From Candidatus Methanoperedens sp. (GTDB taxonomy: Archaea > Halobacteriota > Methanosarcinia > Methanosarcinales > Methanoperedenaceae): a DNA stretch of 37,945 bases. The stretch spans positions 1 through 37,945 of the forward strand of contig JAPMTX010000153.1 in the NCBI GenBank assembly GCA_026552855.1. Direction: 5' to 3'. Both the position numbers and the translations under genes were made by a program. Positions within the stretch are counted from its first letter, which is position 1. Every line of letters begins with the position of its first letter. Shown in pieces: positions 14,357 through 37,530 of the stretch. The notes beneath the pieces are model-generated. The model was not told where the DNA came from, ran no database searches, and saw nothing but the letters and a program-made list of their open reading frames with translations.

Positions 14357-14384
14357 TATAAACAGAGGTGTGATATTGGTGTGA
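14357..14384 (-). promoter_or_regulatory. Motility promoter element upstream of the cheY-D operon
   Basis: On the coding strand, TCACA (14380-14384), 6 bases, TCACA (14369-14373), 6 bases, then the TATA hexamer TTTATA (14357-14362). It lies in the arlJ-cheY gap, giving the chemotaxis operon its own promoter and a leader of about 45-50 bases. The spacing is identical to eight other copies in the window. Confidence 0.85.
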
Positions 14385-14393
14385 TGCGTATCC

Positions 14394-16052
14394 TCATATC
14401 GCTCCCTGGAGCAGCGGACCCATCGCGCGTGTCGTGATTTCTGCCGTTATCGCCGAGACCCATACAAGCCCCACAAAATGGGTATAGGTATTAAAATGGT
14501 GACCGCCGTCCACTACCCTGATAAGCATTGCGGAGATGAGCGAATGACCGACCATCATAAACATTATCATGGTAGACAGCATCCCTATATCAGTATGGGC
14601 AACGCTTGAGATCGATATGCCGATATCAACATCAGGGACGGTAATATTAGAGAAAAGGTTCCCCAGCATCGAAAGTATGGATATTGAGAGGAACATGGTG
14701 GCGCCGATACCTGCTGTTAACCCGTAGAGGACGCCTGTCAGGCTTGAAGCGCTGCTGTACCTCAATTTCCGCATTGAAAGGATATACATGAAATTCTGGT
14801 TGATAATATCACCTATGACCGCGGGTTTTCCTCCCACGTCGGTCCCTTCCACGAACATAGTCGCGAACCGCTCGATCAGGTTGCTTCCTGCGCCTGCAGC
14901 GAAATGCTCCCATGCTTTCCTTTTATTGACCCTGGATTTCAGCCGCTTGTACAGGTTCAATATGTTAGCTGAAAGAGGACCGAAATCATGGGAAATCAGC
15001 TCTTTTAATGATTCCATGATAAGACCGCTCCTTGAGCCAGCCGCACCCCCCAGTGAACGGATGAAGGCGCCGAAATTGTTATCGTACCTTTTGATCTTGT
15101 TCTCCTCCTGCCTTGCTATTAAGCCGGTGATCAACAGAGGAGTTAAAGAGACTGCGAACATGATCGTAGTGGGAAGCTCAGCATAAGCGATCAGGATGCC
15201 GGTGAGAAGTATGCATAACGATAAAGATACGGGCATCGACCACTTGATCCTGCTGTCAGCCATAGTCTCGATCTCAAGTGTATGCCATATCCTGTCCGTA
15301 GGCACCCGGGATTTTGCATACGTCAGCAGCCCGAATTCAGTGCCAAGGAAAATGAGTATAGCGCCTGCAAGGAGCAAGGTGGCGTCCGAACCCGTTATTA
15401 TGGGTACGATGATCGCGAACGCCACTATCATAATGAGGGACATGCCCATCGAGATGAATATTTCTTTTATGCTCTCAATACCGTTCAGCGAATCCTTGTA
15501 CATGGTCATGAAATCGTTCATCACTACTTCCTGCTCTGAGATGATGAACCTGTCAAAATCCTCTCCTGCCTGTACAGCATGCGCCATCCTGTCAAGGAAA
15601 TCCGAGAAAAGCACTGAAGGCGTGCGCTTACCTATAAAGCGGCAGGCTGCAGGAAAATTGAGATGCCAGTAGCGGATAAGCGCGTATATTCTTCCTGTTT
15701 CCTTAGCCAGGTATCCGTAGGCTTCATTCTTTGACAGCAGCAGCAGGATATCTATCCTTGTCATCTGCGAAGTGGCAAGGACACCCATATGCGTGATGTA
15801 ATAGTGGATATTATTGTCTATCTGTTTCTTTTTCCCCTCAAGGCTGGATAACGGGAACACAATGACCATAGCCAGCAGAGCAAAAGGAACAAGCATAATA
15901 GCCATCAACATAGGTCCCTCCATCAAGGACGGAGCAATGATGATCATGAGGAAAGGGAAGATAACCGCCAGTACGGTTACAGGGACGACGAAATTTTTAA
16001 TATATTTATTTTTCGGTATGCCAAGGCAGTGGAATATGACCTTTTGATCCAT
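14394..16052 (-). CDS. arlJ: Archaellum membrane platform protein ArlJ (FlaJ)
   Basis: The 552-residue product is the polytopic platform of the archaellum motor, on which the ArlI ATPase works. It has about nine hydrophobic helices: two at 22-70, several in the middle (about 205-320) and four in the last 150 residues, separating two cytoplasmic T2SSF-like domains. One of these carries 'SDFLDRMAHAVQAGEDFDRFI' and the other 'SGLIMESLKELISHDFGPLS'. Its ATG overlaps the arlI stop by one base and a GAGG ribosome-binding site is present. It is the last arl gene here. Confidence 0.93.
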   Translation of the reverse strand: MDQKVIFHCLGIPKNKYIKNFVVPVTVLAVIFPFLMIIIAPSLMEGPMLMAIMLVPFALLAMVIVFPLSSLEGKKKQIDNNIHYYITHMGVLATSQMTRIDILLLLSKNEAYGYLAKETGRIYALIRYWHLNFPAACRFIGKRTPSVLFSDFLDRMAHAVQAGEDFDRFIISEQEVVMNDFMTMYKDSLNGIESIKEIFISMGMSLIMIVAFAIIVPIITGSDATLLLAGAILIFLGTEFGLLTYAKSRVPTDRIWHTLEIETMADSRIKWSMPVSLSLCILLTGILIAYAELPTTIMFAVSLTPLLITGLIARQEENKIKRYDNNFGAFIRSLGGAAGSRSGLIMESLKELISHDFGPLSANILNLYKRLKSRVNKRKAWEHFAAGAGSNLIERFATMFVEGTDVGGKPAVIGDIINQNFMYILSMRKLRYSSASSLTGVLYGLTAGIGATMFLSISILSMLGNLFSNITVPDVDIGISISSVAHTDIGMLSTMIMFMMVGHSLISAMLIRVVDGGHHFNTYTHFVGLVWVSAITAEITTRAMGPLLQGAI

Positions 16053-17695
16053 TAAACCTCAAACGGTATACCATCAAGACCTTTAGCCTGGTAGTTCCAG
16101 ATGATATCACGTACTTTATAGTAATCCAGGATGTTTTCTTCTACCATCCTGTTAAGAATCTTTGAGCGCAGCGATAGTTCATCGTAGACCATGCGCTTAT
16201 CATCGTATCCCAGCCTGGTCGCAACTTTATCAAGGATAAAGCTGTTATTCTGCCCCCTGAAGCGGTGCTTATCAAGGGTGAAATCCCATTCAAAGACCGC
16301 ACGCGTTATCACGCCTCCCGCTTCCTCCAGGTATCCCTCTATCTCCTCGACCGAAGTGCAGCGCCGGAGGAATTTACCTTTCCTGTATATCGCCTGGAGG
16401 ATAAGGGCGGCGTTGAGGTTATCCGCGAACGTCACAGGGATGTTGATAGGTTCACCTGTCAGGCGCTGGATGAGTTTTTTAACCGACGAGGCATGGAACG
16501 TAGCCAGCACGGCATGTCCTGTCTGCATTGCCTGGAAAGCTACTGCGCCCTCTTCACCCCTGATCTCACCGACTATGATGTAATTAGGTCTTGACCGCAG
16601 AGCGACCTTGAGCAGGGTGAATGTATCCACCTGTGACTCTTTCGGACCCTCTTCACGGGTGATTAACTGCTGCCAGGCAGCCTGGGGAGGAGATACTTCT
16701 GCCGTATTCTCTACTGTATACATTTTAGACTTGCGGTTTATGAAAGGTAGTGCGGCATTGAGCATGGTAGTCTTACCGCTTGCTGTCTCGCCGCTGAAGA
16801 AGATGCTCATCTGGTTCTCAAGAAGAAGCCAGAGATACGAAGCCAGGTTCCCGTCAATGCTTCCCCACTTGATAAGCTGGGTGATGCTGGCAGGGATTTC
16901 CATGAATTTCCTCAGTGTAAAACTTGAGCCCTTTCTGCTGATATCAGTACTGTATATAGCGTTAAGCCGGGTGCCGTCGGGAAGCGTCCCGTCTATGATC
17001 GGGCGCGCGTCACTGACAGGTCTCCCGATCCTTTCTCCTATCGTATGGATCCAGTGACCCAGGTAATCCTGGCTGCCGAAGGTTAAATTGGTATGGAGCA
17101 TTCCCAGGATCTTGTGGACAACAAACACCCCGCTTACCCCGATGCTGTGGATATCCTCAAGGTATGGGTCCCGTATAACCGGTTCGATGGGTCCCTGTCC
17201 TATGATGTTCCTCTCAAGGTAGTAAGATATCTTATCAAATTCCTCATGCGACAGGGGAATTTGCTTTTCTCCCAGCAGCGCATCCAGGAAATTCATTTTT
17301 AATATTTTCCCTTCGACATGCACGGAATCGTTTAAAAGTTTCATCATAAGTTTTCTGAGCTGTTCCTCATTCTCAGGCACGATTTCGTCTGCCGCCCTCT
17401 CAAGGATGGAATCCATTATCTGGCTGTATTTTTTCTGTTCCTGCTCTGTCATCATCGGCTCTATTGCGATATACTGGATCTCCCTGGTTGTTTTATCGCC
17501 TTTCAGATGTATGAATATCGGGTCGCCCACAGGGTAGATGATGGATGGCACAGGAATATCGACAATATCCTTTGATAATTTCGGGAAGAAGTCGGGCATG
17601 ATCCCGGTCTCTTTCTTATAGTTATCAATATACTCTTTTAGATGCGGGTTCCTTGCGATCGCTTCTTCAAACTTGTCATCCAGGATTATCACCAT
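16052..17695 (-). CDS. arlI: Archaellum motor/assembly ATPase ArlI (FlaI)
   Basis: A 547-residue secretion-type hexameric ATPase that powers archaellum assembly and rotation. The N-terminal domain (1-about 280) contains the DARPIIDGTLPDGTRLNA block. Walker A is SGETASGKTT (301-310), the Walker B/Asp-box region is YIIVGEIRGEEG (372-383), and the His box is around G393-H394 and F400-H401. It sits between arlH and arlJ. The ATG lies almost on the arlH stop with only AAGG just before it, so the exact start is a little uncertain (GTG at codon 2 is possible). Confidence 0.95.
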   Translation of the reverse strand: MVIILDDKFEEAIARNPHLKEYIDNYKKETGIMPDFFPKLSKDIVDIPVPSIIYPVGDPIFIHLKGDKTTREIQYIAIEPMMTEQEQKKYSQIMDSILERAADEIVPENEEQLRKLMMKLLNDSVHVEGKILKMNFLDALLGEKQIPLSHEEFDKISYYLERNIIGQGPIEPVIRDPYLEDIHSIGVSGVFVVHKILGMLHTNLTFGSQDYLGHWIHTIGERIGRPVSDARPIIDGTLPDGTRLNAIYSTDISRKGSSFTLRKFMEIPASITQLIKWGSIDGNLASYLWLLLENQMSIFFSGETASGKTTMLNAALPFINRKSKMYTVENTAEVSPPQAAWQQLITREEGPKESQVDTFTLLKVALRSRPNYIIVGEIRGEEGAVAFQAMQTGHAVLATFHASSVKKLIQRLTGEPINIPVTFADNLNAALILQAIYRKGKFLRRCTSVEEIEGYLEEAGGVITRAVFEWDFTLDKHRFRGQNNSFILDKVATRLGYDDKRMVYDELSLRSKILNRMVEENILDYYKVRDIIWNYQAKGLDGIPFEV

Positions 17696-17697
17696 CC

Positions 17698-18390
17698 TTA
17701 CGAGATTCCGGATATGTCTATCATTACCCCGGATCTAGACTCAACCTTGAAACCGAACATGCTCCCGACCTGGAACTCGGGACGAGCATACTTATTTATT
17801 ATTACTGTCCTTCGGATCTCGGTCCCGATCTGTCGGATCTTGAGCGTAAGAAACACCTCGGCAGCATCCTTGAATTCGGTAGTTATGCCGGAAGGAAGCT
17901 CTGTGCTGTCCATGGTCAGGACAATAGTTTTCTGTACTCCGGTTAATTTTTTGAAAAATGATATAAGCTCTAGGCTTTTCTCTGCCTCGGTACTGTAGCG
18001 TATGAGCGCGGAAAGCGTATCTATTATAATGATATCTTTCTCGAAAAGACCCGCAGCGCCCATAAGCCGCTGGATGAAATCGATCCTGGGCTTGGATTCC
18101 TTAAGCAGAGGATACGCAGGGATATAAAGGAGTTCTCCTTTTAACAGCTTGATACCTATGGGGTAATCGAGGGAATTCATCTGGCGGATAAAATTTTTTG
18201 TAGTTAACTGCGTTGAAACATATGTAACCGTGTTCTTGTTGTCCAGAAGACCAAATGCGAACCGCTGGCAGAGGGCGCTCTTCCCGCTCCCGTTAGGACC
18301 GTCGATCAAAACCAGGGCGCCCTTGGGGAAGCCTCCGCCGAGCATCTGGTTTATTTCATCCCTGTCAAGTGCAAACGAATATACTACCAT
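17698..18390 (-). CDS. arlH: Archaellum ATP-binding protein ArlH (FlaH)
   Basis: A 230-residue RecA/KaiC-like protein that binds ATP without clear turnover and docks to ArlI/ArlJ in the motor. Walker A is GPNGSGKS (31-38), and the Walker B strand IIIID ends at D124. Length and order (arlG-arlH-arlI) are standard. Three bases separate it from arlG and two from arlI. The ribosome-binding site is weak, so coupled translation is likely. Confidence 0.94.
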   Translation of the reverse strand: MVVYSFALDRDEINQMLGGGFPKGALVLIDGPNGSGKSALCQRFAFGLLDNKNTVTYVSTQLTTKNFIRQMNSLDYPIGIKLLKGELLYIPAYPLLKESKPRIDFIQRLMGAAGLFEKDIIIIDTLSALIRYSTEAEKSLELISFFKKLTGVQKTIVLTMDSTELPSGITTEFKDAAEVFLTLKIRQIGTEIRRTVIINKYARPEFQVGSMFGFKVESRSGVMIDISGIS

Positions 18391-18393
18391 ATT

Positions 18394-18846
18394 TCACTTC
18401 TTGAATTCGAATTCGTCCTCGATCCCGTTATCCGCTATCACCCTTATCCTGTGGCTGCCGGAAGCCAGGGATGCGGTGGTATTTATCTTCAGGACGTCCC
18501 CCATACGCCATACATTATCTCCCTCGATCACGGTTCTTGTGATATTCCCGTCGGTTATAAGTACACCGTCGATGAGCACAGATACGTATGCGGCGGAAAG
18601 GTCTTCTTTTCCTGTGTTTTTTACATAGAAAGTATAAACCCCGCCTGAAGAATTATACGGGATTATATCAGGGTCGTTTATAACAGTGATGTCTGTCTTT
18701 AACTGTTCCGAGAGGGTCTTACTGCCCACAGTGGCGGACGTAGAGATGGACTGCAGGTTCATGAAAAAGGCTCCAGCCACGGATAGCGCTATTACCACGG
18801 ATACTATGAAAAATATCATATGAGTCGCAGATGTATCCGCTCCCAA
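18394..18846 (-). CDS. arlG: Archaellum stator protein ArlG (FlaG)
   Basis: A 150-residue membrane-anchored protein. The N-terminus GADTSATHMIFFIVSVVIALSV has the ArlG pattern: a short polar start, T-H, then one hydrophobic helix. A beta-sandwich domain outside the membrane follows, like that of archaellins. ArlG and ArlF form the pseudoperiplasmic stator bound to the S-layer. The start chosen is TTG at 18846, because AGGTGA lies 5 bases upstream. An in-frame GTG at 18855 touching the arlF stop is the alternative (153 residues). Confidence 0.85.
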   Translation of the reverse strand: MGADTSATHMIFFIVSVVIALSVAGAFFMNLQSISTSATVGSKTLSEQLKTDITVINDPDIIPYNSSGGVYTFYVKNTGKEDLSAAYVSVLIDGVLITDGNITRTVIEGDNVWRMGDVLKINTTASLASGSHRIRVIADNGIEDEFEFKK

Positions 18847-18855
18847 GCAAATCAC

Positions 18856-19263
18856 CTACGTAGCTGCATAATCGGCGGCGCCGTTGGAGGTTATTATTTT
18901 TACTCTGCCGCCAGTTATCCCGTTAAGGGTCACGTTTATGTAACTCCTGGGCGTCCATACGCCCTGCTGGGAAACACCGAAAAATGACAGCAACGTTCCG
19001 TTATGTATCACGTTCAGTTTGCTGGCATTAAGGGTCACGGACCCGTTGTTGTAAACTGTGACATTCAGGTTGATACTATCACTTATCTGTGCATCCGTTA
19101 TCACTATTTTCGTATTCAGTTTATCATATTGCATATCGTTAAGGTTCTTTTTAGCCTCAAGCACCCTGTTATACGAGAGGTTAGCAAAAGGGTAAAATAT
19201 TGTTGCCATGTATATCATGGAGGCGGCAAATATAGCCACAGCAGCAGAGGTCGAGAATCCCAT
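18856..19263 (-). CDS. arlF: Archaellum stator protein ArlF (FlaF)
   Basis: A 135-residue protein with the typical ArlF start MGFSTSAAVAIFAASMIY: a class III-like N-terminus with one hydrophobic helix. Heptad-like residues (about 30-45) and a beta-rich domain with several N-x-T/S sequons follow. ArlF binds the S-layer and anchors the motor. A GGGGGAT ribosome-binding site precedes the ATG. It lies 14 bases after the divergent flagellin and touches arlG. Confidence 0.88.
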   Translation of the reverse strand: MGFSTSAAVAIFAASMIYMATIFYPFANLSYNRVLEAKKNLNDMQYDKLNTKIVITDAQISDSINLNVTVYNNGSVTLNASKLNVIHNGTLLSFFGVSQQGVWTPRSYINVTLNGITGGRVKIITSNGAADYAAT

Positions 19264-19277
19264 GCCATCCCCCGCTG

Positions 19278-19871
19278 TTATGGATATAGCAGCACGTATC
19301 TGTAGATGCCGAAAGAGTTGGGTGTGGTTATCTCAAGGTTTATCGACTGACCCAGCTCCTGGTTCAGGCTTATCCAGAAAGTCTTCCTCGGAGACAGCGC
19401 GAAACCCAGATTACTGCTGTCCACTGTGATCTCAATCAGATCTCCGCTGTTGAGCACTGGTGTGGTTGTATTGAACGATGCATCTTCGTCGCGCACCGCA
19501 TTGGCTGAATAGTTGGTCGAATATTTGAGATCATTGCGGCTACTGTTATCCATAACGGTTACAATTACCTGCCTCAGATCTATGGAAGTCGTACCTACAT
19601 CAGGTTTGATCCTGATCTTCAGGCTGTCGATACTTGCATTGAGGGCTGCTCCCCTGTCTCCAAGTACCTTATCTACTATCATGTTGGATGATATCTGCTG
19701 GGTTGCCTCTTTGCTTGTCTTCGTGGCTTTCTGCTGAAGCGCACCTGTTGTATAGATCAAAACAGCGGCGGCTACGGCGGCTACCAGTACCATCGATATG
19801 AATATTATAAGCGTGCCTACACCTACGTCACCGCTATCATTGTCTTTGAGGCATTTCCTGTTTGCTTTCAT
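19278..19871 (-). CDS. Divergent archaellin (fourth flagellin)
   Basis: A 197-residue archaellin. The class III signal peptide is short and charged (MKANRKCLKDNDSG), followed by [21 protein letters not shown], the conserved assembly helix. The Gly directly before DVGVG is the expected ArlK/FlaK cleavage point. The rest is a beta-rich domain with many N-x-S/T sequons, ending 'IYRYVLLYP'. It is clearly less similar to the other three flagellins than they are to each other and has no promoter element of its own, so it depends on read-through from the upstream flagellin. It may be a minor or basal filament subunit. Confidence 0.88.
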   Translation of the reverse strand: MKANRKCLKDNDSGDVGVGTLIIFISMVLVAAVAAAVLIYTTGALQQKATKTSKEATQQISSNMIVDKVLGDRGAALNASIDSLKIRIKPDVGTTSIDLRQVIVTVMDNSSRNDLKYSTNYSANAVRDEDASFNTTTPVLNSGDLIEITVDSSNLGFALSPRKTFWISLNQELGQSINLEITTPNSFGIYRYVLLYP

Positions 19872-19890: not shown

Positions 19891-19923
19891 AAAGAAAGAA
19901 AAATTCCCCTGTTTCAGGGGAAT
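19891..19923 (-). terminator. Hairpin with T-run between flagellins, likely terminator or attenuator
   Basis: ATTCCCCTG (19903-19911) and CAGGGGAAT (19915-19923) form a perfect 9-bp stem with a 3-base loop. On the minus strand a T-rich run (TTTTTCTTTCTTT, 19891-19903) follows at once. The stem includes the stop codon of the upstream flagellin. It lies between that flagellin and the divergent flagellin-arlFGHIJ genes, so it could make most transcripts stop after the flagellin. Confidence 0.75.
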
Positions 19924-20504
19924 AGTTGTACCTGGGTACTTGTACCGAATGTTGCCGGAGCTACTACGTCCTTGATTACCATTGTTCCCGATTCCGGGAT
20001 TATCTGGATCGTACCCTTCTTTCGCGGGTATAACTCCTGGTTCAATGCGTCCAGGTTCAGGGTAATGCGTCCGAGGTCTCCTGCCTGTGTGACATTATTG
20101 ATGCTACCTGTCCCGACCCTGTCTTCTGTGTAACTGAACTGTGTTGAAGTTGCGCCGCCTATGGTCAGTATCGATGTAGTCGTCTCATTTATATATTTAA
20201 CAACAACTTTCGACATGTCAATATTGTCTCCGCCAGCAGAAAGCTCGATGGTAACGTTCAGGCTCTGTACATAATTCTGACCTGAATCCGTTTCACCAAC
20301 AACAGATACTATTTTCAGGTTAGAAGCCACTTCTGTTGTCGCTTCTTTACCAGTCTGCTGTGCTTTCTGCTGCAGCACACCTGACGTCTGGATCAACACT
20401 GCTGCCGCCACCGCTGCGACAAGTACCATCGCAATGAAGACGATCAGCGTGCCGATACCGACATCAGCCTGGTTATCTTTAACTATACTGATTTTGGTTT
20501 TCAT
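19914..20504 (-). CDS. arlB: Archaellin (flagellin), copy 3
   Basis: A 196-residue archaellin. The start was placed at 20504, where GGAGGC precedes the ATG; longer in-frame openings upstream lie in the leader. The signal peptide [13 protein letters not shown] precedes [20 protein letters not shown], the conserved hydrophobic assembly helix, then the beta-rich filament domain with N-x-S/T sequons. It differs from the next flagellin upstream at only about nine residues. The residue before the inferred cleavage site is Ala, not Gly. It has its own motility promoter element and is followed by a strong terminator-like hairpin. Confidence 0.94.
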
Positions 20505-20540
20505 AACGCCTCCATTAAATTTTTGTCTTCGAAACTCAGG

Positions 20541-20555
20541 TGGCGGTATACGCCA
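20541..20555 (-). promoter_or_regulatory. Leader hairpin of flagellin copy 3
   Basis: TGGCG and CGCCA (20541-20545 and 20551-20555) form a 5-bp stem with a 5-base loop inside the untranslated leader, about 37 bases before the start codon. It is kept in the leader of flagellin copy 2, while the surrounding bases vary slightly. Confidence 0.4.
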
Positions 20556-20592
20556 TTGCCTGCTTCTAATCATAATTACAATGATACGTGGA

Positions 20593-20620
20593 TATAAATG
20601 GAGTTGTGAAAAAAGTGTGA
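20593..20620 (-). promoter_or_regulatory. Motility promoter element upstream of flagellin copy 3
   Basis: Coding strand: TCACA (20616-20620), N6, TCACA (20605-20609), N6, TTTATA (20593-20598). It is 89 bases before the start codon, so the leader is about 60-65 bases. The 11-bp half-site spacing and the distance to the TATA box match all other copies. Confidence 0.88.
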
Positions 20621-20735: not shown

Positions 20736-21326
20736 TCAGGGGAACAGCTGTACCTGGGTACTTGTACCGAATGTTGCCGGAGCTACTACGTCCTTGATTA
20801 TCATTGTTCCCGATTCAGGGATTATCTGGATCGTACCCTTCTTTCGCGGGTATAACTGCTGGTTCAATGCGTCCAGGTTCAGGGTAATGCGACCGAGGTC
20901 TCCTGCCTGCGTGACATTATTGATGCCACCCGTCCCGACCCTGTCTTCTGTGTAATTGAACTGTGTTGAAGTTGCGCCGCCTACGACCAGTATCGATGTG
21001 GCTGTCTCATTTATATATTTAACAACAACTTTCGACATGTCGATATTGTCTCCGCCTGCAGAAAGCTCGATGGTAATGTTCAGGCTCTGTACATAATTCT
21101 GGCCTGAATCCGTTACGCCAACAACAGATACTATTTTCAGGTTAGAAGCCACTTCTGTTGTCGCCTCTTTGCCAGTCTGCTGTGCTTTCTGCTGCAGTAC
21201 GCCTGACGTCTGGATCAACACTGCTGCCGCCACCGCTGCGACAAGTACCATCGCAATGAAGACGATCAGCGTGCCGATACCAACATCAGCCTGATTATCT
21301 TTAACTATACTGATTTTGGTTTTCAT
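20736..21326 (-). CDS. arlB: Archaellin (flagellin), copy 2
   Basis: A 196-residue archaellin nearly identical to copy 3: about nine substitutions, all but one after residue 45. The start at 21326 has GGAAGC as ribosome-binding site. The signal peptide has Ala before DVGIGTL, as in copies 1 and 3. Gene, leader and promoter repeat with a period of 822 bases relative to copy 3, showing recent tandem duplication. It has its own motility element and its own terminator. Confidence 0.94.
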
Positions 21327-21362
21327 AACGCTTCCATTAAATTTTTGTCTTCGAAATTCAGG

Positions 21363-21377
21363 TGGCGGTATACGCCA
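21363..21377 (-). promoter_or_regulatory. Leader hairpin of flagellin copy 2
   Basis: The same TGGCG-N5-CGCCA hairpin as in the copy 3 leader, at the same distance from the start codon. It is absent from the short leader of copy 1. Confidence 0.4.
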
Positions 21378-21414
21378 TTGCCTGCTTCTCATCATTATTA
21401 TGATTATACGTGGA

Positions 21415-21442
21415 TATAAATGGAGTTGTGAAAAAAGTGTGA
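21415..21442 (-). promoter_or_regulatory. Motility promoter element upstream of flagellin copy 2
   Basis: Coding strand: TCACA (21438-21442), N6, TCACA (21427-21431), N6, TTTATA (21415-21420). The element starts only a few bases after the copy 1 stop codon, so no separate terminator fits between them. Confidence 0.88.
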
Positions 21443-21445
21443 AAG

Positions 21446-22048
21446 TCAGGGGAACAACTGTACCATGGTATTATCGCCAAAGGTCGCAGGCGCTAATATA
21501 TCCTTAAGTACCATTACCCCGGTCTCAGGAACGATATTAAGAGTGCCCCTTCTCCTGGGATACAGTTGCTGGTTCATTTGGGACAGGTCCAGAGTGATAA
21601 CTGCAAGGTCTGCCGATTGCAGTACATGGTTGGGTAAGCCTACCCCTACCCTCTCTTCAGAGTAGTTAAACAGCGCCGCAGTAGGTCCGGTATCTGCTGT
21701 ATTCATGTTCAATGTTGTTGAGGTCGTTTCATTTATGTATTTGATAACTACTTTTGAGAAATCAATAGGGGACCCTCCAGCCGCAAGTTCCACGGTAATA
21801 TTAACCAGTTGAACATATGTTTTGTTGCCATCCGTCTGTCCGATGACAGAAGTCACTTTGAGGTTGGAAGATACTTCAGCGGTCACCTCTTTGCCCGTTT
21901 GCTGCGCTTTCTGCTGCAGTACGCCGGATGTCTGGATCAACACCGCGGCTGCCACCGCTGCAACAAGTACCATTGCGATGAAGACTATCAGCGTGCCGAT
22001 ACCGACATCAGCCTGGTCATCTTTCATTACACTGGTCCTTGTATTCAT
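21446..22048 (-). CDS. arlB: Archaellin (flagellin), copy 1
   Basis: A 200-residue archaellin, the first in the series. The signal peptide [13 protein letters not shown] leads into [18 protein letters not shown]. The body is clearly related to copies 2 and 3 but with many substitutions and a short insertion around '[14 protein letters not shown]'. A GGAGGC ribosome-binding site precedes the ATG. Its motility element is only 31 bases away, so the leader is a few bases long and the mRNA starts at or near the ribosome-binding site. The expression pattern may therefore differ from copies 2 and 3. Confidence 0.94.
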
Positions 22049-22078: not shown

Positions 22079-22106
22079 TATAAATAGAGTTGTGAAAAAA
22101 GTGTGA
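22079..22106 (-). promoter_or_regulatory. Motility promoter element upstream of flagellin copy 1
   Basis: Coding strand: TCACA (22102-22106), N6, TCACA (22091-22095), N6, TTTATA (22079-22084), 31 bases before the ATG. Confidence 0.88.
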
Positions 22107-22121: not shown

Positions 22122-22760
22122 TCAGGCAAATAAATACCCTCTCTTGAACTCTTCTATCTCACTATAGGCTCTATCGATCCGCATTCTCAGGCTTTCAAGC
22201 AGGAGCCTTGTATTGGGATCGTCCCTGAGTTTCGTATCAGGGTAAAGCTGACGCATCATTATGAAAAATTTCCTGTCGCTGATGCTCTGTTTCAATAACA
22301 TGATCTTTTTCTCCAAGATAGAGAGGTTCTCCTCTTTGCCTTTGAGACACCTCACAGCTTCAATGCACGTCTCAAGGAGAGAGGGAACTTCAAGTGCATC
22401 CCTGACAGCCATATGAAGGCTATCTACGGTGACAGGCATCATCAGATAGTCCGAGACCATATGTACACGTGAGAAATCATCCATGGTAGGGGGTTTTGAA
22501 GTAACTATAACAACTGGCATATAAGGCTTCTGCTCTTTTATTTTTTTAACTAATTCCCATCCATCCATGTCAGGGAGGTCTATATCCAGCAGCACCACAT
22601 CCGGCGCATCTTTCTTTAAGGATGACAGGCAATCTCTTCCTGTATACGCTATCTTGGATCTGTATTTTTCTACGTCCATTAACAGCATTTCTGCAAAAAG
22701 ATCTGCTATCTCAGGTTCACTGTTAGCTATGAGTACGTAGTTTGGCTTTTTATTCACCAT
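22122..22760 (-). CDS. Degenerate response regulator with a helical C-terminus
   Basis: The 212-residue product has an N-terminal CheY-like receiver (about 6-125) and a helical C-terminal region of about 85 residues that I do not recognise. The phosphoacceptor D59 (VVLLDIDLP) and T87 (VIVTSKPP) are kept. The acidic pair is replaced by N13-S14-E15 and the conserved Lys before Pro109 is Met108, so normal phosphorylation chemistry is doubtful. No ribosome-binding site is seen; a TATA-like stretch at about 22784-22791 lies about 27 bases before the ATG, so it may be leaderless. It lies between the flagellins and the ribbon-helix-helix genes and lacks the motility element. Confidence 0.75.
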   Translation of the reverse strand: MVNKKPNYVLIANSEPEIADLFAEMLLMDVEKYRSKIAYTGRDCLSSLKKDAPDVVLLDIDLPDMDGWELVKKIKEQKPYMPVVIVTSKPPTMDDFSRVHMVSDYLMMPVTVDSLHMAVRDALEVPSLLETCIEAVRCLKGKEENLSILEKKIMLLKQSISDRKFFIMMRQLYPDTKLRDDPNTRLLLESLRMRIDRAYSEIEEFKRGYLFA

Positions 22761-22861: not shown

Positions 22862-23533
22862 TTACTGTGCCTTCACAAGAATAAGGTCGTTCTGTACGGG
22901 TATTTTATTCTCTGAGCTATCGGAGAAGTGGGTGTATATCGATTGCATGGCTTCCTCAAAGCTGGAAGCGGCTGAAAGCTGTACGGATATGGATGAGGGA
23001 TATACCATCAGCCTGCTTATTTTCTGAGGAGTTCTGTTGTTTGCCAGAAACAGTGATATCAGCATAGCATTGAAATGATTTATTTCAGGGTCCATGCCTG
23101 TTATTTGAAGCGAGATCTGTCCCTCACCGCTGTTAATAGATACGGTTACGGGCCAGTTCAGGATAGACAGCTCTTCGTTGATTATTTTATTCAGGCTGTT
23201 GATATCGTAGATGTTAACATCGCAGTGTGTTGAAAATAGCTGGCTCGCTTCACTCAACGGAGGGAGTATGCTCTTTCGGTTGCTCAACATCCACTTGAAC
23301 ATGGTCAGCGGGATCGTCACGCCGAATATGCGATTGCGTATCTGTTCACTGAAGTGGTTCTTCTCTTTCAAAAGATCTTTTGCAGTCTCAAGGCTACCCA
23401 TGTTCTCGGTCACGAAGCCTGTAAAATCTATTATGTCTCTCATTGCGGCTGACAGGTTGCCCTGATGCTTTTTAAGCAATGGCTCAAGAAGTTTCAGATG
23501 GGCATCACTTATTGATACATTTTTTCTTAGCAT
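22862..23533 (-). CDS. Ribbon-helix-helix-like protein, paralogue 1
   Basis: A 223-residue protein of no recognised named family. Residues 1-38 (LRKNVSISDAHLKLLEPLL..., then GNLSAAMRDIID) have the pattern of a ribbon-helix-helix DNA-binding domain: a short beta strand, an amphipathic helix, a G-N-x-S turn and a second helix. The same N-terminus occurs in the gene at 23789. The remaining 185 residues are mixed alpha/beta with no clear motif. An AAGGTG ribosome-binding site lies before the ATG. Two small palindromes lie upstream. A DNA-binding regulator of motility genes is inferred from fold pattern and location only. Confidence 0.65.
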   Translation of the reverse strand: MLRKNVSISDAHLKLLEPLLKKHQGNLSAAMRDIIDFTGFVTENMGSLETAKDLLKEKNHFSEQIRNRIFGVTIPLTMFKWMLSNRKSILPPLSEASQLFSTHCDVNIYDINSLNKIINEELSILNWPVTVSINSGEGQISLQITGMDPEINHFNAMLISLFLANNRTPQKISRLMVYPSSISVQLSAASSFEEAMQSIYTHFSDSSENKIPVQNDLILVKAQ

Positions 23534-24793: not shown

Positions 24794-24847
24794 ACTCATC
24801 CTTTTGATAAATCTCTTAGCGCTAAAACATCGTATGGTTTACCAGAA

Positions 24848-26848: not shown

Positions 26849-26881
26849 AATCAATCATGAACAGGTATAAGTTATCAATTA

Positions 26882-26969: not shown

Positions 26970-29171
26970 CTATTCCCTGATAATCTTGTACCAGTCGCAC
27001 GTCATGCACGTATTTCTCTTCTGGGCTGCTGTTCCCTGTACCTTGCCCCCGCAGAACGTGCCTGCGACCATCCAGCAATCTCTCCCGTGATCCGGGGATG
27101 CAGGACATATATCCAGTTCAGCAGCTTTGCTGCCGCCACTCTCTCTTCCGCATTTCTTAAACTCCCAGCAGCTCTTAAGCGTCGCTTTCTCTCCAGAAGG
27201 CTTTGCTCCTGCCTGTGCTGCCTGGGATTTCTGTGCCGTTTTCTTCGGCGCATTAGGCTCTGCTGAAGGTCCCTCTTCGGTACCCGATGATCGTTTTACA
27301 TCTGCAGTAGATGTTGATTTTCCGAGATTCAGCTTCATAACCTCAGACCGCAGGTCATCAGACAGTACAGCCAGATCCTGTGCCGCCTTTACGAGATTCT
27401 CCATTGACGACGCCTGTTCCTCTGCCGCCGCTGAGGTCTGCTGGGTAGCTGAGGCTGATTCTTCACTTATGGCAGATACGTCCTCTATAGAAGATGTAAT
27501 CTCTTCAATGGATACTGATTGCTCCTCAGCCGCTGCTGCGATCTCCTGCACCATTGTAGCAACATCTCCCGTGGCTTTGACGATGCGATTGATCGCCGAG
27601 ACCGTACCTTCGATAGTTCCTGCACCCTCGCTCACCGTTTTTGTACCCGTGTTCATGCTCTCGACAGCCTGTTTTGTCCCCTGCTGGATTTCCTTAATAA
27701 GCTGGGTAATCGTACCTGCTGCATTTCTTGATTCCTCGGCAAGTTTTCGGACTTCATCAGCAACAACTGCGAATCCTCTCCCATGTTCCCCTGCTCGGGC
27801 GGCTTCGATGGCTGCGTTGAGCGCAAGGAGGTTTGTCTGGTCAGCGATGGTGGTAATTACACCGATGATCTCACCGATCTTCTGGGATTTGCCGTCAAGG
27901 TCTCTTATTACGACCGCTGAGTTATCCACTGTTTTCTTGATCTCGGTCATCTTGTTCAGCACGTCACTGGACATACCGCCCACTTCCTGGGCTGTTTTAT
28001 CAGCATCATTTGCACCGTCAGAAGCTTTCTGGGCATTGCCAGCCACCTGCTGAACGCTCTCAGACATCTCTTTCATGGCGCGGCTTATCTCCACCAGTTT
28101 TGAAGCCTGCTGGGTTACCCCTTCGGAAATACTCTGAGTACTGGTGGATATCTGATCAGTTGAAGCTCTTATCTCATCGCTTGATTCGGCAAGCTCCTTT
28201 GCCACCTTGGTGGCTTTCTGGGAGGCGGAGAACATACTGTTCATGGGTCTGGTTATGGACCTGGAACTATAGAGACCTATAAAAATACCTGTTACAATTG
28301 CCGCAAATGATAGTATAATAACCGTAGCTTTTATATTCGATCTCATACCATCCAGTGAAGACATTTTTGCAGCCTCATCCCCGGCTACATCCTCAAGGAA
28401 TTCATCCAGAACCGGCTCCATCTGGTACACCGTATTCCTGATCTCAGCATCTTTATCCTTTATCCTGGAGTTTATATCTACGACTTTATCAAAAGCTGAG
28501 GTATATGTAGAGAGCCTGGCGTTAATATCGTCCCTGGCGCTCTGGGGTAACTTACTCGCTGCAAGGTCGCTCTTCAGTTTCTTTTCAGTTTCATGCAGTG
28601 TTTTCTGGTACTCTAAACTGCCGCGCAGGAGATAGTCTTTTTCGTTCCGCCTCAACTGCAGCATATCCGCAAGGAGCAGATTATCGCCATACCTGTTGAT
28701 CTCGTTTTCGATATCATGGACAGCAGTCCGCAGTTCTCCCTGAAGACCTGAGTTTTCGTCCAGACCTTTTGTCTTATAAAACTGCACCTTCTCCAGGAAC
28801 TTTTTTTCGTAATCGTCAGTCAACAGGATGATTTTATCAGCCATGTCCTTTCTTTCCTGGGGTACGTCCAGTCTCTTAATCTCCTCTGCTTTTTTCTTTA
28901 TCTCGGATGTTGCAGCTGTTATTTTATCGACGTTTGTCAGATTGTTTTGCAGGGAAAAGTCATTTTCATATCTCCTTGCCTCAAGCATTTGCGTACGGAT
29001 CTCAAAGGATTTTTCTTTGAGTTTCATCTCGCTTCCAAGCAAAGATTTTATCGAATTATCAAAAGAATCCATGGAGATAATACTTACAGCGCCTACCAAC
29101 ACTAATAATATGCTCATCAACCCAAATCCAGCCAGTAGTTTCCTGCCCAGGGACATATTTACGCGTACCAT
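26970..29171 (-). CDS. Methyl-accepting chemotaxis protein, HBM sensor and two-CW tail
   Basis: A 733-residue chemoreceptor. Layout: TM1 (about 10-32), a long helical extracellular region with the two repeated ARRYENDF and [12 protein letters not shown] segments typical of the helical bimodular (HBM) sensor, TM2 (about 278-300), a long signalling coiled coil with the hairpin tip [22 protein letters not shown], a low-complexity linker, then a two-CW tail (seven Cys) in the last 70 residues. The start at 29171 was chosen for its GGAGGAG ribosome-binding site. The ligand is unknown. Its tail nearly duplicates the separate protein just downstream. Confidence 0.93.
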
Positions 29172-29239
29172 GAACTCCTCCAAATTTTGATTATATGTGT
29201 TTCAGTACAATATATCAGTTTAAAATAAATTCACGCGTT

Positions 29240-29267
29240 TATATATGGATTTGTGAAAAAAGTGTGA
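29240..29267 (-). promoter_or_regulatory. Motility promoter element upstream of the HBM/two-CW receptor
   Basis: Coding strand: TCACA (29263-29267), N6, TCACA (29252-29256), N6, TATATA (29240-29245). It shares about 30 bases of near-identical context with the copy at 37503. Confidence 0.88.
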
Positions 29268-29438: not shown

Positions 29439-31448
29439 CTATTTTTGCTTGATATCGTCAAACATGGATGCGACCGGTTTCTCTATTTCTTCTCCCGATT
29501 CGCTTTTGCCGGCGGTCCCTTTTTCATCCATGTTATGCCTGACTGCTGGTTTCTGTTCGTTCTGTTTTGATGCCTCATTCTCATCATTACCGCCTGAATC
29601 TGTTTTTCCAATATTCAGCCTTGCAACCTCGGACTGCAATTCTTCTGCTAATTTTGCCAGTTCCTGGGATGCTACTACAAGCTGTTCCATTGATGCAGCC
29701 TGTTCCTCAGCCGCGGCTGAGGCTTCCTGGGTTCCTGCGGCTGATTCCTGACTGATGGCAGATACATCCTCTATCGAAGCTGTGATCTCCTCGACAGATA
29801 CGGATTGTTCTTCCGCCGCTGTTGCTATCTCCTGTACCATGGTAGCAACATCGCCTGCGGATTTAACTATGAGATTTATAGCGGTAGCGGCGTTCTCGAT
29901 AGTCTCTGCCCCCTCACTTACTATCTTTGTACCCTGGTTCATGCTCTCAACAGCATGCTTTGTCCCCTGCTGGATCTGTTTTATCAGTTCGGTGATCTGG
30001 CTGGCTGCAGTCCTTGATTCCTCAGCAAGTTTTCGGACCTCGTCAGCAACGACTGCAAAGCCTCTTCCGTGCTCTCCCGCACGCGCCGCTTCGATGGCAG
30101 CATTAAGCGCAAGGAGGTTTGTCTGGTCAGCGATGTTGGTTATTACGTTTATTATATCGCCTATCTCCTGAGATTTACTATCAAGCTCCTTTATAACGCG
30201 GGCTGAACCGTCAACGGTTTTTTTGATCTCAGCCATCTTGTTCAGCACGTCTTTTGACATCGTTCCTGCCTGCTGCGCGGTCTTATCAGCATCTTCAGCG
30301 CCTTCAGCCGCTTTCTGGGAATTGGATGCGACCTGCTGCACGCTCTCAGCCATCTCTTTCATAGACCGGCTGATTTCGGTCATCTTGGATGCCTGGAGGC
30401 TTACGCCCTGCGCGATATCCTGAGCTGTTGTGGAGACCTGCTCTGTGGCGTTCCCCATCTCCATGCTCGATGCTGAAAGCCTCTGTGCTACTCCTGCGAT
30501 CTTATTGGATGCATAAAACATAGTACCCACTGATCTGGTGACGGAGCGGGAGGCATATATCCCAATGGTAAGACCTGTTATAATTGCGAAAATGGAAAGT
30601 ATTATAACCACTGCCTTCGAGGTGCCGTTGGATACAGCCATAGCCTCCGTATTGTTAGCCCGGTGGTGCTCTGATTCTTTTACTATACCTGCAACAAGGG
30701 TATCTATCTGGCGTGCTTTATTCACAAGGTCATCTTCTTTGCTATCCCTTGAGATAGATACGCTGACAAACCTGTCAAAGGTGACCAGGTATGTATCAAG
30801 CTTTGAGTTGACTTGCTTTTTCTCACCAGCCGACGCCCCGGACGCTGAAACGCTCTTCTTTGCATTGTCGATTGCATCGTGTACTTTATTCTGATAGGTA
30901 ACGTCTTTGCGTATCACATAGTTCTTCTCATGGCGCCTGGCTTCAAGCAGATATGCCAGAGCATCAGTGTTATCTATATTCTTTATATCCGCCTCCGCAT
31001 CGCGCGCCTGGTTTATCAGATCCCCGTTTAACCCTTCCATCTCTGCCATGCCGATCTGTTTTTGAAGTGAGACCACATCAAAGAAGGTAGCCTCGTAACC
31101 AACGACCAGGGTTAAAATATTATTTGCATCATCCTTGATATTCTGACTTACATCCAGTTTCTGTATCTCCGCAACGTCATCCCTGATACCGTTAACCGAG
31201 GATTTTACCTTATCCGCATACTGAAGGTCGCTGCGCATAAGGAAATTTTTCTCATCGCGCCTTGCCTGGAGAAGACTATTGCTTATATTATCAGCTTTTT
31301 TCTCAAGCGTTACCTCGTTATCAAATAAGTCTTTTGTTTCCTTTTCCACTGAGCTTAATTTTGTCACGCTTATCAGGCTTACTATCACCAGCAAGATAAT
31401 GACCAGCCCGAACATACCCATCAGCTTTTTATTCAGAGAAATGTTCAT
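29439..31448 (-). CDS. Methyl-accepting chemotaxis protein, HBM sensor
   Basis: A 669-residue chemoreceptor with TM1 (about 9-31), an HBM-type helical sensor marked by [12 protein letters not shown] and [15 protein letters not shown]2 (about 280-302), and the signalling coiled coil with the same [22 protein letters not shown] tip. The tail is short, charged and lacks the two-CW domain. The start at 31448 (MNISLNKKL) was chosen: the upstream in-frame stretch to 31550 reads as leader and GGAG lies 10 bases before this ATG. Unlike its neighbours it lacks the motility element, so it may be regulated separately. Confidence 0.92.
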
Positions 31449-31591
31449 TGTACCCGCTCTCCATTCCCTCTTTGTTAATATTCTTATTAGCCTGAAGGTA
31501 TACTGGTGGTTTTCCTGTCCCTGCAGGCGAGAGAAGTCCCTTCTGTACATGATATTGCAGATTCAATCGAAAAGCTGGACTGATACGTGAA

Positions 31592-33625: not shown

Positions 33626-34939
33626 TCATTTCAGCACGAAACGGGATGTTGCCTTCTGCAAATCTTCAGATAGCATTGCCAGGTTCTGGGCAGCCCTGAC
33701 AAGCTGCTCCATTGAAGCTGTTTGTTCCTCAGCCGCTGCTGAGGCTTCCTGGGTTCCTGCTGCTGATTCCTCGCTAATGGCAGATATGTCCTCAACAGAG
33801 GCGGTTACCTCCTGGACCGAAGCTGATTGTTCCTCAGCCGCTGCTGCAATTTCCTGAATCATCGTCGCCACGTTTGCTGCGGACTGAACGATATGGTTGA
33901 TAGATGATACCGTTTCATCTATTGTTCTGGTTCCCTCATTGACCGTTTTAGTTCCCCTGTCCATGCTTTCAACGGCTCTCTTTGTCCTCTGCTGTACCTC
34001 TTTTATGAGTTCGGTGATCTGGTTCGCTGCTGTCCTTGATTCTTCAGCAAGCTTGCGGACCTCGTCAGCAACAACTGCAAAGCCCCTGCCGTGCTCTCCC
34101 GCACGCGCCGCTTCGATGGCTGCGTTGAGCGCAAGGAGGTTTGTCTGGTCAGCGATGTTGGTTATCACGCCTATTATCTCACCTATCTTCTGGGATTTGC
34201 TATCAAGCTCCCTTATCACGACCGCAGAGCCCTCCACGGTCGTCTGTATCTCTGTAATCCTCTGTGCGATCTCACTGGATTTCTTCCCGACATCCTGGGC
34301 GGTTTTATTTGCTTCATTGGCACCCTCAGCCGCTTTCTGGGAATTGGCTGCGACCTGCTGGACGCTCGCAGCCATCTCTTTCATGGCGCGGCTTATCTCA
34401 GTAATCTTCGTAGCCTGCTGGCTAACTCCTTTGGCGATATCCTGTGAAGTACTGGAGACCTGCTCAGCAGCGGCTTTCATCTCCTCGCTTGATGCCGAGA
34501 GTTTCCTTGAAGATTCAGCAGCTCTTAGAGCGGACTGCTGTGTATATCCGAGGATATTTTTCAGGTTCGCTGTCATTTTTCTGAAATGTTCTGCAAGCTG
34601 ACCGAGCTCATCCCTGGATGTAACTGTCACATCCACAGTTAGATCCTTTTGAGATATCCGGTTCGCTGCAGCCTCGAACTCGTTGAGAGGCTTTAAAATG
34701 GAGCGCGTCAGACCCATGCACATCAGAATAGAAGAAACTATAGCAAAAAACATGAAGAGAATAAGCATCTGTTTTGGGCTTATCATCGTACTGATACTGT
34801 CACCATAAAGCCCCAGGTAACCGACTATTAACATCAACGTATCAACAACAATAAAGCTGTATGCTATCTTCATCCCGATTTTAAACTTATTAATGGTCAG
34901 CTCATTCGCTCTGTCTACAATGTTGCCAATAAGATCCAT
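33626..34939 (-). CDS. Methyl-accepting chemotaxis protein without an extracellular sensor
   Basis: A 437-residue receptor with two TM segments (about 24-44 and 57-78) joined by only about a dozen residues, so it has no extracellular ligand domain. A HAMP domain (about 80-130, with [18 protein letters not shown]) and the full signalling coiled coil with the conserved [15 protein letters not shown] tip follow. It could sense through the membrane, internal state, or partner receptors. A GAGGAT ribosome-binding site precedes the ATG. It lies 55 bases after the Cache receptor with no promoter between, so the two are cotranscribed. Its two-CW tail was lost by frameshift. Confidence 0.9.
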
Positions 34940-34994: not shown

Positions 34995-37244
34995 CTAAGT
35001 GTTTCTCTTAAATGCTTCACAGGTCATGCAGTTGTGCATCTTCGCTTTTGCATCACCCTGCCTGATACCTCCGCACCAGGTCCCTTCGATCAGCCAGCAG
35101 CGGGTTTCGGGAGATTTATATGCAGGGCACTTCTGCCTGATATCATCCTTGCATTCCTTGATATCCCAGCAGCGTATATACTCTTTAGCGGATTTCAATA
35201 TGAACCGCGATGCCACCATCTGCAAATCCTCTGATAATACAGTAAGTTCCTGGGCTGCCCTGACAAGCTGCTCCATTGATGCTGTCTGTTCTTCAGTGGC
35301 TGCAGAGGCTTCTTCCGTACCTGCAGCAGATTCCTGACTGATGGCGGATACATCCTCGATAGAGGAGGTAACCTCTTCGACAGATGCTGATTGTTCCTCT
35401 GCCGTCGCTGCGATTTCCTGGATCATATTAGAAACGTCCCCTGCTGCTTTTACGACACGGTTAATAGCAGACACTGCATTTTCGATTGTTCCTGCGCCCT
35501 CATTGACGGTTTTCGTGCCCCGCTCCATGCTTTCAACAGCCTGTTTCGTACCCAGCTGAACTTCTTTTATGAGCAGGGTGATCTGATTGGCTGCACTTCT
35601 TGATTCTTCAGCCAGCTTTCTTACCTCATCAGCGACCACAGCAAAGCCCCTGCCGTGTTCTCCGGCGCGGGCGGCTTCGATGGCAGCATTGAGCGCAAGG
35701 AGATTCGTCTGGTCGGCTATGTTGGTTATAACACCTATAATCTCGCCTATCTTCAGGGATTTGCTATCAAGTTCTTTTATTACAACGGCTGAGTCATCAA
35801 CAGTTTTCTGGATTTCAGCCATCTTCCTGGCAATCTCACTGGACATGCCTCCCACTTCCTGGGCTGTTTTATTGGCATCCTGAGCACCCTCAGCCGCTTT
35901 CTGGGAATTAGCTGCGACCTGCTGAACACTATCAGCCATTTCTTTCATCGTCCTGCTGATTTCCGCCATCTTTGAAGCCTGGTGGCTTACGCCCTTTGCG
36001 ATATCCTGTGATGTGGTTGATACCTGCTCAGTGGCTGCTTTCATCTCCTCGCTTGATGTCGATAGTCCCTGGGCAGCAGAGGAGACCTTAAGCGCCGAGC
36101 CCTGTAATTTCCCGATGACTTCTTTTAAGTTCTCGGTCATTGCCTGGATAGCCGCAAATAGCTGTCCGATCTCGTCTTTCGTGGTACTCCTCACCCTGAC
36201 TGTCAGGTCGCCTGCTGCGACTTTATTAGAGATCCGGAGCATAGCTTCTATTGGTCTGGTGATGCTTCTTGAGAACCAGATTCCCAGTACAGAACCTGAT
36301 ACAAAAAATACCAGCACCGTCAGAATCAAACTATCTCTTATCGCGTATATCGGACCGCTGAAATCATCGAGATAACTCCCTGATGCTATTATCCAGTCAC
36401 GCGGTTCGTAATAGGTATATGCCACCACTTTATCCTTTCCTTCCCAGGGATACTGGATAAATCCCTTTTTAGTTTCAGTTATCGTCTTTATGAAATCGTA
36501 CTCATAGATGTTCTCCCCTTCACGGTTGGGATGGATTACCAGGTTGCCTTTTGAATCTATAACATAAAGATATCCTGTTTTACCGACAACCATGCTCTTC
36601 ATCTGTCTTTTGATGTTGTTTATAAAGGGATCTTCAAGGACTCCGACGTATAGTATGCCGATGATTTTGCCGGACCTGTCCTTTATAGGTTCATAGGCTG
36701 TAAGATACCATGCATTTACCACCCATGCCCTTCCATAATATGTCTCGCCGCGCGTTACCACCGCATCATATACAGGCTGCGATACTTTCGTTCCCACAGC
36801 ACGCGTACTGTCATTTTGAATTACGTTCGTAGATATACGGATCGCCTCACTGCCTGTTACCTGGAATACCGTGGCAGTGCCGCCTACCATGCTTTTGATC
36901 GTATCTACAATTTCAAAGTTACCGTTTACGACATAATTATCGCCCAGTACCATCTTGCCGTCAGCGACCCTGGGTGTGCCTTTTTCATAGAATTGGTTTC
37001 TTGCCACTCCGAGGTCGCTGTCGACCTTGTCCTGAGCCAGTGTGAGAGTTACGTTTATATAATCATTTTCTAATCGAACCTGCTCTTCCAGTTTCCCCTG
37101 TATCTCGGTATAAAGGGCGGTTTTAACTTCGTTATAGGCGTATATTCCGATTATGGCTACTGGTATGGTTGAGAGAATCAATGCTAACGCAATAATCTTG
37201 TATTTTATGCTTATGTCCTTTAATTTTTTCATGAGCCTTACCAT
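34995..37244 (-). CDS. Methyl-accepting chemotaxis protein, Cache sensor and two-CW tail
   Basis: A 749-residue receptor with TM1 (about 14-36), a large extracellular Cache3/Cache2-type sensor (about 40-300, including [29 protein letters not shown] and [17 protein letters not shown]), TM2 (about 305-328), HAMP (to about 385), the signalling coiled coil and a two-CW tail of seven cysteines (RCWDIKEC ... [10 protein letters not shown] ... CMTC). Cache domains usually bind small organic molecules outside the cell. The ATG at 37244 overlaps the stop of the upstream 45-residue gene; an ATG four codons later is an alternative. It leads into the receptor at 33626. Confidence 0.93.
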
Positions 37245-37375
37245 CCACTTTCAAAATTCCTCTCAGTTCCCGGGTTGCTTTCCAGAGCACTCACTAAAGA
37301 ATAGCAGAATATTCCTGCAAGCAGTGCCAAGACTATTATTACCATGGGCAGTTTGTATATCACGCTCTCTTTCAT
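37238..37375 (-). CDS. 45-residue single-helix membrane peptide upstream of the Cache receptor
   Basis: ATG at 37375, TAA at 37238-37240. The product begins [20 protein letters not shown] and has one hydrophobic helix (about 11-30) flanked by charged ends. A GGAGAG ribosome-binding site lies about 6 bases upstream. The stop overlaps the ATG of the Cache receptor (ATGGTAA), so translation of the two is coupled. It lies in the leader that follows the motility promoter element. It is shorter than usual gene-calling limits. It could be a receptor accessory or a leader peptide; function unknown. Confidence 0.65.
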
Positions 37376-37502
37376 AGCTTCTCTCCGATAGGTCGTTCAC
37401 CCAGTTTTTGCCCAACAGCATCCAGGTTTCCGTTTTTTAAAGCACGTCTACCCGCTTATGATGAACTCTTTTACCAGTTTGGATAAAAATGCTGTCCTAT
37501 AA

Positions 37503-37530
37503 TATATATGGATTTGTGAAAAAAGTGTGA
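37503..37530 (-). promoter_or_regulatory. Motility promoter element upstream of the peptide/Cache receptor operon
   Basis: Coding strand: TCACA (37526-37530), N6, TCACA (37515-37519), N6, TATATA (37503-37508). The leader to the 45-residue gene is about 100 bases. Confidence 0.86.

Follow-up and report, generated by a model that had tools for sequence, protein, structure and literature searches.

Activator-dependent archaellum promoters are a kind already known. EarA (PF07381), a winged-helix protein, is named as the sole archaellum-cluster regulator that was known in Euryarchaeota before CsmR (PMC13286277). It uses short repeated sites, one to four copies of a TACATA-type motif, located directly upstream of the weak B recognition element (BRE) of archaellum promoters, and help to transcription factor B (TFB) is the proposed mechanism; in Thermococcales, the motif is reported solely before the first archaellin gene (PMC10665913). 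TFB-RF1 of Pyrococcus furiosus is described as recruiting TFB to weak-BRE promoters (PMC5937170; PMC5512572), and CsmR of Haloferax volcanii is a 13-kDa non-EarA archaellum regulator with a predicted winged helix (PMC13286277). Here, we analyze a promoter element in a 37,945-nucleotide contig of Candidatus Methanoperedens sp. (JAPMTX010000153.1, analyzed whole and referred to as the window). As at EarA promoters, its repeats lie directly upstream of a weak BRE; it differs in being a fixed-spacing pair of TCACA half-sites that reaches 19 exact sites in one genome, the largest count found. This short, rigidly spaced element probably marks swimming, sensing, and small-RNA genes for a new activator.

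The sequence-only reading of the window reported nine minus-strand promoters carrying two TCACA half-sites and a TATA box at constant spacing. All nine 28-base sites are present and fit TCACA-N6-TCACA-N6-TWTAWA. They are as follows:

14357 to 14384, minus strand: before cheY (13928-14284) and the che operon with cheB, cheA, cheR, cheC, and cheD, down to 8869 (Pfam).
20593 to 20620, minus strand: before archaellin gene 19914-20573 and then the downstream genes from 19278 to arlJ at 14394 (Pfam).
21415 to 21442, minus strand: before archaellin gene 20736-21395 (Pfam).
22079 to 22106, minus strand: before archaellin gene 21446-22048 (Pfam).
24848 to 24875, minus strand: before gene 23789-24799, encoding RHH-L, a protein with a ribbon-helix-helix (RHH)-like N-terminus; autoregulation is predicted.
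26540 to 26567, minus strand: before hydrophobic-protein gene 26037-26510, a recurrent regulon member.
26882 to 26909, minus strand: before two-CW-domain gene 26624-26854 (NCBIfam NF045718).
29240 to 29267, minus strand: before receptor (methyl-accepting chemotaxis protein) gene 26970-29183 (Pfam).
37503 to 37530, minus strand: before receptor gene 34995-37244, with a second receptor gene, 33626-34939, 55 bases downstream of the first (Pfam).

The last site lies 258 bases from the receptor start used (37244), and a short open reading frame (ORF) of ~45 codons occupies part of the interval (37245-37500).

When up to one mismatch was allowed, TCACA-N6-TCACA matched the window nine times, each time with no mismatch, while shuffled windows gave a mean of 1.98 and a maximum of 7 matches (0 of 100 shuffles reached nine). 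A looser search (TCACACNNNNNTCACA, up to three mismatches) yielded 71 matches against 79 expected. Since there is no excess at three mismatches, the signal resides in the exact sites. A scoring matrix trained on 134 sites from other genomes and then run over the window gave the nine sites scores of 36.4 to 46.1 and everything else less than 5; control scores peaked at 11.9 in five mononucleotide shuffles and at 8.8 in the reversed sequence. The matrix scan agrees with the sequence-only statement that the metabolic genes at 1-8770 lack the element: no weaker copy scoring 5 or higher was found there. In the same scan, receptor gene 29439-31550 had no element of its own.

The refined consensus, for which the fetched loci and the window supplied 179 unique exact matches, is tTCACAC-n-TTTt-TCACA-mmTYYG-TTTATAt. 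Steps of 11 bp lead from the start of the first half-site to that of the second and on to that of the TATA box, placing all three on approximately one helix face, and the six bases separating the second half-site from the TATA box constitute the BRE. The half-sites are thus about one helical turn apart and just upstream of the BRE, as had been read from the window.

The window is contig C114 of a 3.40-Mb assembly (211 contigs; 99.86% complete, 6.49% contamination). In this genome, TCACAC-N5-TCACA was found 20 times (reversed control, 0), and the 28-bp pattern had 18 exact matches and 36 when up to two mismatches were tolerated (reversed control, 0 and 4, respectively). When both spacers were left free (0 to 20 bases) in front of TTTATA, 11 of the 12 matches had spacers of 6 and 6, with none in the control; the geometry therefore belongs to the signal. 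Sixteen of the 18 exact sites could be assigned to motility, signaling, or recurrent regulon members, one of them (C117:15490) solely through a short coding-like stretch in common with genome G042. The remaining two are C137:9742, which has no gene, and C199:4724, before a doubtful, truncated DHH-like ORF. A motif equally common before unrelated genes would have refuted the sequence-only reading; by this count, the element is rare in the genome, which supports that reading. Outside the window, the targets are a 118–amino acid (aa) hydrophobic protein, a histidine kinase, a hairpin RNA, two receptors, a KaiC-like ATPase, and the C117:15490 stretch; the reading frame of the receptor at C91:35109 is broken in this assembly. 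The genome contains six MCPsignal matches. Four of the genes have the element upstream, the fifth (33626-34939) is the one 55 bases behind an element-bearing gene, and the sixth (29439-31550) is without an element. Two further TCACA pairs with a poor TATA match, G000:C28:43741 (locus L044) and G000:C91:20755 (L041), are possible weak members; one precedes a haem-NO-binding-domain gene, and the other is located 365 bases before a formaldehyde-activating-enzyme ORF.

A scan of related genomes, which had also been proposed, covered 185 genomes of the order, 34 of them in Methanoperedenaceae; most are metagenome-assembled genomes (MAGs), and they are mutually related. The exact 28-bp pattern occurs in 25 of the 185 genomes and is nearly confined to the one family: 21 of 31 genomes of the genus and three of three from the family's other genera carry it (24 of 34; 236 sites versus 0 in the reversed control), compared with one of 151 genomes in the rest of the order (one site; two in the control). 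On the shuffles, reversed controls, matrix scores, spacing, and family-limited distribution, chance or a general promoter motif was rejected as the source of the element.

The archaellum genes of the window are as follows:

14394 to 18390, minus strand: arlJ, arlI, and arlH, encoding the platform, the motor ATPase, and its KaiC-like partner (Pfam; arlJ and arlI also NCBIfam).
18394 to 19871, minus strand: arlG (named by position), arlF, and an archaellin-like gene (Pfam). The ArlF match to NF052590 scores 91.9 bits, under the 110-bit cut-off.

ArlI was found in 31 of the 34 family genomes and is of two types. All 22 genomes with the window-like type (73 to 100% identical) have the element. The second type (59 to 61% identical) is present in nine genomes, seven of which have two arlI matches; eight of the nine lack any site, and archaellum presence alone is therefore insufficient. 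In the ninth, G048, a single site precedes a receptor gene and is divergent from the gene of RHH-S, a paralogue of RHH-L; G073 (67% complete, ArlI not found) has two sites, one likewise beside RHH-S. Among the loci checked, the 12 type-A clusters L100 to L111 have one to six sites each and the fragment L125 has one, while 14 loci from this and other genera (L112 to L124 and L126), some of them short, have none. The element thus tracks a particular regulator-plus-archaellum set and not archaella as such. Some variation among clusters was also seen. Loci L117, L120, L124, and L126 (Methanoperedens-titled and related records) contain the second archaellum type, in which arlI occurs as a tandem pair and the motility element is absent. 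In L111 of G042 (10001-11631), a frame change or stop interrupts arlI, which may be an assembly error. In L102 (3818-6569), ~2.7 kb separates arlF from arlG, which are adjacent in other relatives.

Targets in the relatives were tabulated for 117 site rows, hand-chosen stretches from the sites listed up to G059; some rows duplicate one site because loci overlap, and part of the archaellum-cluster sites were left out. For each row, the longest ORF starting at most 450 bases from the site was picked mechanically. An ORF was present in 112 rows, and 89 of these belong to seven recurrent groups: receptors together with RHH-L (40 rows), KaiC-like proteins (13), the family of the gene at 26037 (11), a small hydrophobic family (9), receiver and kinase proteins (9, two being che operon rows), archaellins (4), and a kinase (3). 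Among the remaining 23 rows, about ten are hairpin sites. Pfam searches with nine further targets identified kinases or receiver proteins in seven and gave no match for two. The KaiC-like ATPase, ~250 aa long, is among the most constant regulon members (G000:C117:33228, L085, L089, L245, L260, L263, and others).

The BRE had been described as pyrimidine-rich, and the larger set supports this: a pyrimidine is found at −3 in 162, at −2 in 158, and at both positions in 145 of the 179 unique sites, while a purine is kept at −6 in 136. Positions −3 and −6 are the strongest BRE determinants (PMC5512572), so one of the two has been lost. In promoters of the 350-aa RHH-like paralogues from the same genus, purines occupy both −3 and −2 in 18 of 20 cases.

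By analogy with what is proposed for EarA and TFB-RF1, we infer a promoter that requires an activator to bring TFB. In Methanoperedenaceae, the element would serve as the operator for a regulon dedicated to archaella and chemotaxis. A protein occupying the two TCACA half-sites would sit on one helix face beside TFB and could recruit it to a BRE in which −3 and −2 are mostly not purines, so that the genes would be on only when the protein is active, perhaps in response to some signal. An activator of the RHH-L type would also control its own gene. Judging from the sequence features above, we favor this reading, an archaellum and chemotaxis operator at which an RHH-L–type activator recruits TFB to a weak BRE, with moderate confidence. 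Such recruitment would resemble that described for TFB-RF1; the regulon here comprises motility and sensing.

The position of the site next to the BRE would also suit a repressor operator, where binding shuts TFB out and turns off motility genes that are otherwise on, and RHH proteins are commonly repressors. Such promoters would be expected to have a good BRE, yet 145 of 179 sites here have pyrimidines at both −3 and −2, versus purines in 18 of 20 paralogue promoters, which makes repression improbable. The near-invariant spacing to the TATA box (11 of 12 matches) would alternatively fit an extended BRE that is recognized by a second, specialized TFB. However, a search with the PF00382 profile revealed one two-repeat TFB gene in 29 of the 34 genomes, that of the window included; G054 has a second TFB of 184 aa, yet no site, and four genomes show no TFB. 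Two repeats one turn apart also suggest a separate DNA-binding protein. A second TFB as the cause was therefore rejected as very improbable. An EarA-type system with a diverged site would share with the element its short repeats and their place immediately before a weak BRE (PMC5512572, PMC10665913). We give this explanation almost no credence, since PF07381 was found in none of the 34 family genomes, with the control seen in M. jannaschii and S. acidocaldarius (above the cut-off in one), and the sites read TCACAC-N5-TCACA and not TACATA (PMC10665913). The view that the element is unrelated to the EarA site holds on both counts, and the candidate binding protein is RHH-like where EarA is a winged helix.

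The genes that may encode the binding protein lie next to the archaellins:

23789 to 24799, minus strand: RHH-L, 336 aa, RHH-like N-terminus; best candidate for the binding protein.
22862 to 23533, minus strand: RHH-S, 223 aa, paralogue of RHH-L; second candidate or partner.
22122 to 22760, minus strand: receiver-domain protein, a conserved neighbor of the archaellins.

RHH-L is the most likely binder as judged from its sequence and genomic context, alone or with RHH-S and the receiver protein, which may be a partner of the RHH proteins. The RHH-L gene lies beside archaellin genes, as that of CsmR does (PMC13286277). The full element is located 72 to 90 bases before the aligned RHH-L start in all 20 orthologues with an intact start, and, by coordinates, in G053 too. 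It persists before RHH-L when the gene is off the archaellum contig, for example in G046, where RHH-L is on C6 and ArlI on C26. RHH-L matches occur in 110 of the 185 genomes; for divergent homologues, the element was found before none of 14 rows and in none of 40 upstream regions, one of which (L352) has both half-sites with the TATA box absent. Orthologues were defined by at least 60% identity for RHH-L and at least 55% for RHH-S, and split or partial genes of G053 and G058 were counted as present. In the 25 genomes that are at least 90% complete, sites, RHH-L, RHH-S, and the window-type archaellum occur together in 18 of 18 and are all absent from the other seven. Across the 34 family genomes, 21 of the 24 that have sites and 0 of the 10 that lack them encode RHH-L; for RHH-S, the counts are 22 of 24 and 1 of 10.

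RHH-L and RHH-S are 25 to 29% identical to each other and as whole proteins have no Pfam match except for a weak one of RHH-S to UBA_HYPK. The most conserved part of the family is the common N-terminus, with R-K-N-[IV]-S-[LI] followed by H-x-K-x-L-x-P-L and G-N-x-S-A-A-M-R-x-I-I-D. Four of 19 family N-termini (~50 residues) matched RHH_1 (PF01402; best E, 0.00015), the CopG-type family. Structural models contain two helices where expected, at residues 13-25 and 30-46 of RHH-L and 10-22 and 27-44 of RHH-S; the strand is not formed. Beyond the N-terminus, both proteins differ from CopG in having further alpha/beta segments, seen in low-confidence models and lacking Pfam matches, and the site here is a direct, not an inverted, repeat.

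Several observations weigh against RHH-L as an RHH activator. RHH_1 was not matched by 15 of the 19 N-termini, including that of RHH-L itself, and seven of the 19 weakly matched UBA_HYPK. Profile searches of the PDB gave no RHH chain, and comparison of the RHH-L and RHH-S models with the PDB returned nothing at an E value of 0.001 or better; we therefore build no fold claim on the models, in which the predicted local distance difference test score is below 50 at residues 1-18 of RHH-L and 1-9 of RHH-S. RHH proteins are usually repressors that act on inverted repeats. The co-occurrence counts are not independent, as they come from related genomes that are mostly MAGs, and RHH-L, RHH-S, and the archaellum type travel together, so that the more complete genomes do not separate the three. 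There are also exceptions: G048, G065, and G073 (87, 63, and 67% complete) have one or two sites with RHH-L not found, G057 and G065 have sites with RHH-S not found, and G066 has RHH-S and no site. Of these, G057 favors RHH-L, and G048 and G073 favor RHH-S, so either protein, or both, may bind. The receiver gene is equally constant by the archaellins: it is there in 14 of 14 type-A loci that extend beyond them on its side.

The exceptions, the weak matches behind the RHH assignment, and the constancy of the receiver protein would fit a regulon whose binder is encoded elsewhere, with the RHH-like proteins merely traveling with the archaellum cluster. We consider this unlikely, although less so than repression: RHH-L is preceded by the element in 20 of 20 orthologues, and the exceptions all come from genomes that are 63 to 87% complete. 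The sole other predicted DNA-binding gene nearby, the FilR1-like gene at 32563, was rejected as the binder because it was found in only two of the loci (L090 and L111), a weak argument given that the loci differ in extent. Returning to an RHH-L–type activator, we put forward tentatively, as plausible but short of probable, that it represents an archaeal activator class of its own: an RHH-like protein with extra domains, perhaps acting with its paralogue and the receiver protein, that would read tandem TCACA sites, recruit TFB, and control archaella, chemotaxis, receptors, the KaiC-type ATPase, and hairpin RNAs.

Several sites have no near gene but are followed by a hairpin whose stem starts 24 to 27 bases after the TATA hexamer, i.e., where the transcript is expected to begin. 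A 10-bp stem is common to 13 copies, with six pairs changed on both sides and 99.2% of cells paired, the structure having been derived from the same alignment on which it is tested, which favors it. Four of five stem measures exceeded all 500 shuffles, while the number of further pair types (9) was reached by 441 of them; slid alignments were lower in cells paired, double changes, and covariation score but not in pair types. A hairpin model gave 24 rows in seven of the 34 genomes, two of them reverse-strand matches of the same hairpins; absence elsewhere is weak evidence, as 145 candidates per genome were scored from a larger first pass. There are 24 distinct hairpins, two of which were seen outside the model search. 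Fourteen have the exact element, three are near misses (one or two mismatches to the degenerate pattern), one is marginal (three mismatches), and six have none, among them all three hairpins of G055, a genome without the element. An Rfam search of seven hairpin loci gave tRNA as its sole match above threshold, plus one sub-threshold match to mir-3747. The hairpin RNA genes are 60 to 80 nt long (L080, L081, L083, L086 to L088, L241, L248, L249, L023, L047, L304, and L310) and lie mostly behind the element; five copies (L320, L323, L305, L311, and L314) have another promoter, with no element and, by eye, A-rich sequence before the TATA box. These linked small RNAs add a second layer.

The sequence-only reading knew of no description of the site; the candidate activators and the RNA genes go beyond what it covered. 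The literature surveyed, which left preprints and subscription journals largely outside and included papers represented by part of their text, gave no description of the element, of RHH control of archaella, or of the hairpin RNAs. Nor did it describe the scale of the regulon, the lack of EarA, or the RHH-like candidates. The element thus represents a further arrangement for archaellum control, one in which the operator is defined, the targets are listed, and candidate proteins can be named. In a Methanoperedens MAG, all three archaellin genes were reported up on an electrode compared to nitrate (PMC10874420). While oxidizing methane with manganese, Ca. M. manganicus strongly expressed two of its four archaellins, and none of the five in Ca. 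M. manganireducens was expressed (PMC7082337); conductive archaella are discussed in both papers. The element is a possible handle on this switch in archaellin expression, and the proposed activation, if true, would explain how uncultured Methanoperedens turn on archaella.

Archaellum genes and RHH-like proteins were also met outside these sets. A MAG labeled as Proteobacteria (L156) encodes an archaeal-type ArlI (51% identical) and is probably mislabeled or a mixed bin. The large RHH-like family of the order includes forms of ~350 and 490 aa, with up to 11 matches per genome. The 350-aa paralogues (upstream regions L324 to L343) share another promoter, also conserved, that has an A/G-rich BRE and contains repeats around AGTAGCAC and CAGTGATACT. 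Outside the family, G015 (L299) has a 20-kb stretch with RHH-S homologues (39 to 45%) that contains no archaellum gene and no site; seven of ten neighboring genes scanned there have Pfam matches (redox, SAM-hydroxide adenosyltransferase, cytochrome-motif, and TatC).

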